NCBI GenBank assembly: GCA_025935415.1
Contig: JAICVI010000005.1
Span: 1 to 35,452, forward strand
From: Chloroflexota bacterium
Lineage (GTDB): Bacteria > Chloroflexota > Limnocylindria > Limnocylindrales > CSP1-4
Direction: 5' to 3'
Length of the DNA: 35,452 nucleotides
Under the pieces are notes generated by a model. That model did no database searches. It saw only the letters and a list, made by a program, of their open reading frames with translations, and was not told where the DNA came from. A program made the position numbers and the translations under genes. Of the stretch, positions 1-2,115 are shown piece by piece. Position 1 is the stretch's first letter. Every line of letters starts with the position of its first letter.

Positions 1-132
1 ACCAGTCCGTCACGCCGGGCGTATGACCCAGACGAGTAACGGCCTCTCGCGCGGCGCGACGAGCAATCTCTTACGCCCGGCGCAATCCGGCCATTGGGAA
101 CCCGTCACGGGCATCCCGGTAGGCCTGACCCC

Positions 133-702
133 GCGCGACCCGGGCGCAATGGGGCGCAACCCGGCGCAGCCCCGCGCAACCCGGCGCAGCCCCGCGCGAC
201 CCGCGCGCCCGGCGCGCAACCCGGCGCGACCTAACGCAACTCGGCGCGACCCAACGCAATCGGGCGCGACCCCGCGCAACCCGGCGCAGCCCCGCGCGAC
301 CCGGCGCAATCGGGCGCGACCCGGCGCGACCCGGCGCAGCCCCGCGCAACCCGGCGCGACCTAACGCAACCCGCGCGACCCGGGCGCAATGGGGCGCAAC
401 CCGGCGCGACCCAACGCAACCCCGCGCGACCCGGCGCAATGGGGCGCAACCCGGCGCAATCCGGCCAGCCCGGCGGACCCTGGCCCAGCCCGGCGGACCC
501 TCGCCCAGCCCGGCGGACCCTGGCCCAGCCCGGCGGAACCTGGCGCAACCCGGCGGAACCTGGCGCAACCCGGCGCGACCCAACGCAACCCAACGCAATC
601 GGGCGCCACCCCGCGCGACCCGGCGCGACCCAACGCAATCGGGCGCGACTCGGCGCGACTCGGCGCGACCCGGCGCGACCCGGCGCAACCCGACGGAACC
701 TA
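133..702. repeat. Degenerate decanucleotide tandem array, about 57 units of 10 bp, consensus GCGCRACCCG
   Basis: Read directly: units such as gcgcaacccg / gcgcgacccg / gcgcagcccc / acgcaatcgg / gcgcaatggg follow each other in 10-bp register. Only a few units are 8, 9, 11 or 12 bp, and total length is exactly 570 bp. Confidence 0.95.
466..565. repeat. Higher-order 20-bp sub-array inside the decanucleotide array (cagcccggcggaccctggcc x5, near identical)
   Basis: 466-485, 486-505, 506-525, 526-545 and 546-565 differ from each other at only 1-3 positions. Confidence 0.9.
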
Positions 703-783: not shown

Positions 784-2010
784 TCAGGCGGCGGGAACGG
801 CCTCGGGCATGCGGATCCCCGCCTCGGAGGCGAGCGCCTCCGCTTTCTCCGTGCGCTCCCAGGGAAGGTCGAGATCGAGCCGGCCGAAGTGGCCGTACGC
901 GGCGGTCTGGCGGTAGATCGGTCGACGGAGGTCGAGCGCGGCGATGATCGAGGCGGGCCGCAGGTCGAAATGCGCGTTGATGAGCTTGAGGATGTCCTCG
1001 TCGGGGATCCGGCCCGTCCCGAAGGACTCGATCGAGACGGACAACGGCCGCGCGATGCCGATGGCGTAGGCGACCTCGATCTCGAACCGGTCGGCCAGGC
1101 CGGCCGCGACGACGTTCTTCGCCACCCAGCGCGCCGCATACGCCCCCGAGCGATCGACCTTCGTCGGGTCCTTGCCCGAGAAGCAGCCGCCACCGTGGCG
1201 GGCCATCCCGCCGTACGAGTCGACGATGATCTTGCGTCCCGTCAGCCCGGCATCGCCCATCGGCCCGCCGACGACGAACCGGCCCGTCGGGTTGACGTGC
1301 ATGACGGGATCCTCGTCCCGCAGCTCGCGCGGGATGGACGGCAGGATGACCGCCTCGGTGAGGTCGTCCTGGAGGCGGTCGATCCGGACGTCGGGATCGT
1401 GCTGGGCCGAGACCACGACCGTTCGAACGTGCTTCGGCACGCCGTTGGCGTATTCGACGGTGACCTGCGTCTTGCCATCCGGCCGGAGGTACGGCAGCTG
1501 GCCGGACTTGCGCGCCTCTGCGAGGCGGCGAGCCATCCGATGCGCAAGCGCGATCGGCATGGGCATGAGCTCCGGGGTCTCGCGGCAGGCGAACCCGAAC
1601 ATCATCCCCTGGTCGCCGGCGCCGAGCTCCCCGAGATCGACCTTCTCGCCGCGGGTCTCCAGCGCCGCATCGACGCCCTGGGCGATGTCCGGCGACTGCT
1701 CCTTGACGGAGATCAGGGTCCCGCAGGTCTCGTAGTCGAAGCCGTAGTCCGACCGGGTGTAGCCGATCTCCCGAACCGTTTCGCGGACGACCTGCTGGAA
1801 GTCGATGTAGGTCGAGGTCGAGATCTCGCCGAGGACGATCACGAGCCCCGTCGTCGTTGCCGTCTCGCAGGCGACGCGGGCGCCTGGGTCCTCCCGGATG
1901 ATCGCGTCGAGGATCGCATCGCTGACCTGGTCGCAGAGCTTGTCCGGGTGGCCCTCGGTGACCGATTCGGACGTGAACAGGTACTCGGGCGCGTCGACGA
2001 TGCTGGTCAA
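784..2010 (-). CDS. metK: S-adenosylmethionine synthetase
   Basis: [29 protein letters not shown]-terminus and [27 protein letters not shown] motif. Start assigned to TTG at 2010 preceded by gagga; the listed ORF runs on into antisense of kynU. Confidence 0.95.
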
Positions 2011-2115
2011 GAAGTCCTCGAAGCTGGGCCGGTGTGTCGCCCGGGACTCTACCACCGGACCAGCGCCACCTCCGTTGGCACGAACGTCCCGGTCTCGACG
2101 GCTAGGATCGCGCAG

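Follow-up and report, generated by a model that had tools for sequence, protein, structure and literature searches.

A decanucleotide array that is probably a variable minisatellite of the metK-manC spacer in a Chloroflexota bacterium

The decanucleotide array that lies beside metK in the window (the whole stretch of 35,452 nucleotides that was analysed) is, with good probability, a GC-rich intergenic minisatellite (VNTR) of the metK-manC spacer of one species, subject to turnover by slippage, recombination and conversion. Its 570 bp are made up of 57 head-to-tail units, and a second version with a different number of units was assembled at the end of another contig of the same genome. A slippage or recombination mechanism, a seeding of the array from its flank, the reading of the second version as an allele and not a paralogue, and the lack of a selected function are all inferred, and variability of the array from strain to strain would be expected from the two versions.

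Architecture of the array

A dynamic-programming parse of positions 133-702 resolves 55 ten-base units alongside a single 11-bp unit (unit 1) and a single 9-bp unit (unit 34), and TRF calls essentially the same tract (128-700, period 10, 57.3 copies, score 433), which outscores every other array in the window by a wide margin. Autocorrelation yields an identity of 0.66 at lag 10 (z = 13.8) and 0.72 at lag 20 (z = 15.7), where first-order Markov simulations give 0.36, and nowhere outside the array does the window exceed 0.35 at lag 10. The original prediction, which described a 10-bp-unit array with a total length of 570 bp on the 3′ side of metK, is thus borne out: TRF and the parse agree on 57 units, the identity of metK is confirmed by Pfam, and two of the checks proposed with it, a tandem-repeat finder and a search for a 10-bp peak in excess of base composition, both gave the expected result. 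The register is not continuous, however: midway, unit 34 with its 9 bp displaces it by one base, so that the array consists of two in-register blocks of approximately 330 and 230 bp, within each of which the spacing is near-exactly 10 bp. Owing to this same shift, long exact repeats are also found at lags of 169, 349 and 379. The positions of the array, its parts and associated features are collected in Table 1.

Table 1. Coordinates of the array, its segments and associated features (window positions unless a locus is named)
Feature	Position	Strand	Evidence
Decanucleotide minisatellite, consensus GCGCRACCCG, 57 units	133..702	.	TRF, autocorrelation, unit parse
Left flank common to C16	1..132	.	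Alignment, pattern search, direct reading
Hypervariable half: 30 units in the window, 16 unalignable units in C16	133..433	.	Unit-level alignment
Shared core of 13 units (31-43, includes the 9-bp unit 34), 2 substitutions relative to C16	434..562	.	Unit-level alignment
12-unit segment present in the window and missing from C16, preceding the shared last two units	563..682	.	Unit-level alignment
metK (S-adenosylmethionine synthetase), 3′ end towards the array	784..2040	-	Pfam; tblastn in congeners
Array unit considered for quadruplex formation: GGGTTGCGCC			
Inverted-motif clusters	window 13-26 and 69-82; L008 4066-4292; L187 8026-8226; L188 1068-1277		
Gene-bearing metK-manC spacers	L027 1806-6394; L028 2158-6148; L032 1812-5535; L036 2523-7570		

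Among the units a small set of types recurs, namely GCGCAACCCG (ten copies), GCGCGACCCG (eight), GCGCAGCCCC and GCGCGACCCA (four each), and GCGCAATGGG, ACGCAATCGG and GCCCAGCCCG (three each), and the recurrence of these variants resembles a minisatellite variant-repeat map (MVR-like). Exact duplications of 24-35 bp are found within the array at separations of 20 to 379 bp, for instance 35 bp repeated after 240 bp, 34 bp after 100 bp and 33 bp after 40 bp. There is, moreover, a higher-order period of 20 bp, in that the observed identity at lag 20 was reached by only 1 of 1000 unit-order shuffles, and pairs of units have therefore been copied together.

The plus strand of the array is almost devoid of T (19 of 575 bases), which is why open frames run through it on both strands; a protein-coding repeat was rejected, since differences by whole 10-bp units would break the reading frame. 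A CRISPR array was rejected as well, in keeping with the original prediction, as the parsed units are contiguous and no unique spacers separate them.

A second version of the array

The source genome assembly (G000) comprises 260 contigs and is 81% complete, with the window situated on contig C11. It holds one other real match to the array, a run of 31 units that terminates contig C16 on the right and whose flank is 99% identical to window positions 1-135 (1 mismatch over 135 bp); a third match, on contig C24, was rejected as a 21-bp repeat distinct from the decamer array. Array and flank occur in the source genome only at these two places, and a dispersed repeat of the REP or MITE kind was rejected on this basis, the short motif within the flank being considered separately. 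A plasmid or phage origin was also rejected, no match having been found.

Unit-level alignment pairs 15 units of the two versions with 3 mismatches in 150 bases, comprising the 13-unit core and the last two units. The left halves of the two arrays do not align, and their unit types are largely drawn from the same set. The C16 array carries unit variants of its own that do not appear in the window array (e.g., GAGCAGCCCC and GCGCTACCCG) and is therefore not a collapsed copy of it. The two versions thus differ by whole units, 57 as compared to 31, which contradicts the earlier impression that the array does not look like a VNTR, with the proviso that this difference is allelic only by way of the synteny argument that follows.

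The array is intergenic, facing the 3′ end of metK at 784 in the window and the 5′ end of manC on C16, where manC (a nucleotidyl transferase) and pmm, both assigned by Pfam, adjoin it. In 10 of 14 other congeners, metK and manC are neighbours on the same contig, followed by pmm in 8 of these 10 (tblastn), and the metK-manC-pmm order is co-directional. Given this adjacency, C11 and C16 are most simply read as a pair of haplotypes of the same metK-array-manC junction, where assembly would have been interrupted. The C16 contig stops within the last unit of its array, the right flank of which is unseen, and for this reason the C16 array could be a second, paralogous copy or an artefact of assembly. 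That flank and array constitute a dispersed element, with one copy beside metK and another beside manC, is nonetheless improbable: two contigs do carry both parts, and the short inverted motifs of the flank do recur at two other intergenic-looking sites, but the adjacency of metK and manC in congeners allows both contigs to fit a single junction, and flank and array are matched nowhere else in the source genome.

Two further features of this neighbourhood were recorded. Just upstream of manC, in the spacer of the decamer array, lies a perfect 16-bp tandem repeat of 3.8 copies, GCGGCCGGTGTCGAGG (L008 3988-4048). The metK of congener G003 was matched by tblastn as two separate pieces (L035 9405-10782), which points to a frameshift or insertion, or else to an error in sequencing.

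The left flank and the proposed growth of the array

An 18-base string, CCCGGCGCAATCCGGCCA, is present in the left flank and, on direct reading, again within the array, which suggests that the array may have been seeded from its flank. A decamer near CCCGGCGCAA, also found in the adjacent flank, would have been tandemly duplicated, and the array would have grown and turned over through slipped-strand synthesis and, where repeats were misaligned, through unequal exchange or conversion between them. Point mutations would have given rise to a few unit types, which later duplications would have spread through the array.

The left flank also holds an inverted motif, TCATACGCCCGGCG / TCTTACGCCCGGCG, located by pattern search on the minus strand at 13-26 and on the plus strand at 69-82. 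The form TC[AT]TACG ... CGTA[AT]GA is clustered in three intergenic-looking stretches of the source genome, two of which adjoin a tandem array. The motif pair gave three matches in 387 kb of this genome, whereas four control word pairs gave 0, and none was found in 60 relatives. These clusters could represent a REP-like element or an operator.

Conservation of the spacer and occurrence of the unit elsewhere

As delimited by tblastn ends, the metK-manC spacer falls into two size classes of five congeners each, approximately 45-80 bp and 1.5-5 kb. TRF detected no 10-bp array in the spacer of the 10 congeners in which it was fully read; the array is therefore not conserved and is particular to one species among the genomes compared. 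Within the genus, genes have been gained or lost at this spacer, with ABC-transporter-like genes in four congeners and lengths of only about 45-80 bp in five. Judging the translations by eye, the long spacers of G010, G006 and G004 contain polyamine-type ABC transporter-like genes, along with an XRE-cupin-like regulator in G010 and G006, while that of G001 contains a related transport gene set and that of G012 a single large gene.

The array scan covered about 387 kb of the source genome, within which the window array is the only 10-bp array with a score of at least 100; the scanned portion also has arrays with periods of 9, 16, 17, 24 and 30 bp, the majority of them away from likely genes. 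Beyond the source genome, an exact 24-base pattern (approximately 2.4 units) occurs in 51 stretches of the genome_contigs collection, belonging to many phyla. Runs of roughly 5-15 units are found at twenty loci (19 of the 51, plus one from a family member), most of which lie outside likely coding frames by an approximate judgement from codon-position GC. Among 400 Chloroflexota, the unit pattern occurs in 4 genomes besides the source genome and a reversed control pattern in 2, and in viral contigs the corresponding counts are 3 and 5 matches. A special, widespread unit was accordingly rejected, as the pattern is not clearly enriched over its reversed control in either set, and because the control does about as well, these counts do not support the existence of a dedicated element. 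Decamers of this kind may simply arise time and again in GC-rich genomes. The literature on decanucleotide arrays yielded nothing specific.

Two related arrangements were seen in the same family. One genome has a degenerate 10-bp / 41-bp array (L090 1390-1660) with a unit near GGGGTTGTGC, close to the reverse complement of the window decamer. Another, G033, has two GCGCGACCCG units at a contig start (L010 1-42), just upstream of a purE-like gene, and these may be the margin of a longer array at which assembly failed.

Structural potential and possible functions

Five G3N1-7 quadruplex motifs occur in the array, all on the metK/manC coding strand, and span 213 bp compared to 15 in Markov simulations. 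At least as much potential is, however, seen in 19 of 60 column-permuted arrays, and a G3 or C3 run is present in 61% of random decamers of the unit's composition, from which it follows that the quadruplex potential is a consequence of repetition. A G-quadruplex array as the defining feature was therefore rejected, the signal being strong against the Markov model and ordinary against column permutation. With respect to folding, every dinucleotide shuffle (100 for the RNA) does better than the minus-strand RNA and the plus-strand DNA of the array, whereas 58 of 60 column-permuted arrays show weaker self-pairing than the unit itself. Column permutation preserves repetition and is the fairer control, and the disagreement of the two indicates that shuffle z-scores mislead for repeats; the self-complementarity above 58 of 60 permuted arrays leaves some room for selection on structure. 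A structured RNA was rejected, given that Rfam covariance models gave no match to positions 1-2400 up to E = 1 and that every dinucleotide shuffle folds better.

These properties bear on an alternative that we regard as unlikely, namely a regulatory VNTR in which the number of units would tune read-through or initiation into manC by means of RNA hairpins, G-quadruplexes or R-loops and produce phase-variation-like differences between strains. The co-directional metK-manC-pmm order with G-tracts on the coding strand, the five quadruplex motifs, the different length of the C16 version and the strong self-pairing of the unit are all consistent with such a role, but the quadruplex potential is attained by about a third of column permutations, the RNA folds worse than its shuffles, and the array is not kept in congeners. 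Still more doubtful is the specific proposal that unit number and composition control the transcriptional coupling of metK (SAM supply) to the manC-pmm mannose pathway, in which case strains would differ in surface-sugar output according to array length; a regulatory role in this coupling is possible but unsupported.

The original prediction also raised a phased protein-binding or nucleoid-organising tract, built on a GCGC palindrome carried by most units and recurring on roughly one face of the helix. GCGC does occupy unit positions 1-4 in 37 of the 55 ten-base units, but it is missing over 89 bp (454 to 543) and is not the best-conserved tetramer, CGCR being found in 43 of 55. Across the unit, GCGCRA on the left shows somewhat better preservation than CCCG, a point against the favoured minisatellite reading. 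B-DNA has about 10.5 bp per turn, such that a spacing of 10.0 bp rotates by approximately 17 degrees per unit, and the 57 units therefore do not share one face of the DNA, contrary to what had been supposed. That a protein occupies GCGC once in every helical turn, so as to coat or bend the spacer, is thus very improbable: near-exact spacing over the two blocks and GCGC in about two thirds of the units would favour it, but the drift around B-DNA, the weaknesses of GCGC just described, the absence of the array from the 10 congener spacers, the unrelated, non-helical periods of other arrays in the source genome, and identified neighbour genes (Pfam) that are metabolic or encode a MarR regulator, with no partition or nucleoid protein among them, all argue against it. 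The reading of an expanding repeat, put forward in the same prediction, stands.

Relation to known repeat systems

The array is best regarded as a degenerate variable minisatellite of a common type, albeit an unusually long one, and not as a new DNA element. It provides, for an uncultured lineage, a clear case in which a single metagenomic assembly yielded a long bacterial minisatellite in two versions that agree in one half and are scrambled in the other, and offers both a strain marker and a site at which to study the turnover of long GC-rich repeats in bacteria. It also illustrates that a period close to the helical turn need not by itself imply a protein-binding platform.

Bacterial minisatellite or VNTR loci have units of 10-300 bp and are used in MLVA, and those of Xanthomonas include intergenic loci with 10-, 11- and 16-bp units (PMC12654951). 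Like the minisatellites described there, the window array has head-to-tail units of at least 10 bp and an intergenic location; variation by whole units between strains would be a further common trait, judging from the two assembled versions. It differs from the Xanthomonas loci listed there, which have 0-12 copies, in its 57 copies and more degenerate units, and its variation is deduced from the two assembled versions instead of genotyped as in MLVA (PMC12654951).

The GGGNATC heptamer repeats of Xanthomonas and Nostoc are G-quadruplex repeats that are mostly intergenic and often lie between co-directional genes (PMC4692102). The window array likewise has a G3 tract once per unit and an intergenic position between co-directional genes, but whereas those repeats have a 7-bp unit and are distributed genome-wide, it has a 10-bp unit, 7-base loops and a single locus, and its quadruplex potential consists of sequence motifs that do not exceed column-permuted controls (PMC4692102). 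Membership in this group was rejected, as the unit is the decamer GCGCRACCCG and not the heptamer. A further parallel is MSY1, a haploid minisatellite of the human Y chromosome whose mutation process was measured in single molecules (PMC2599865). MSY1 turns over in a haploid context, as the window array would, with blocks of unit types that vary in number and order between alleles, although MSY1 is eukaryotic and its mutation was measured, whereas turnover of the window array is deduced from comparison (PMC2599865). The nearest described relatives of the window array are the MLVA minisatellites (PMC12654951) and, on account of a G-tract in every unit, the GGGNATC repeats (PMC4692102).
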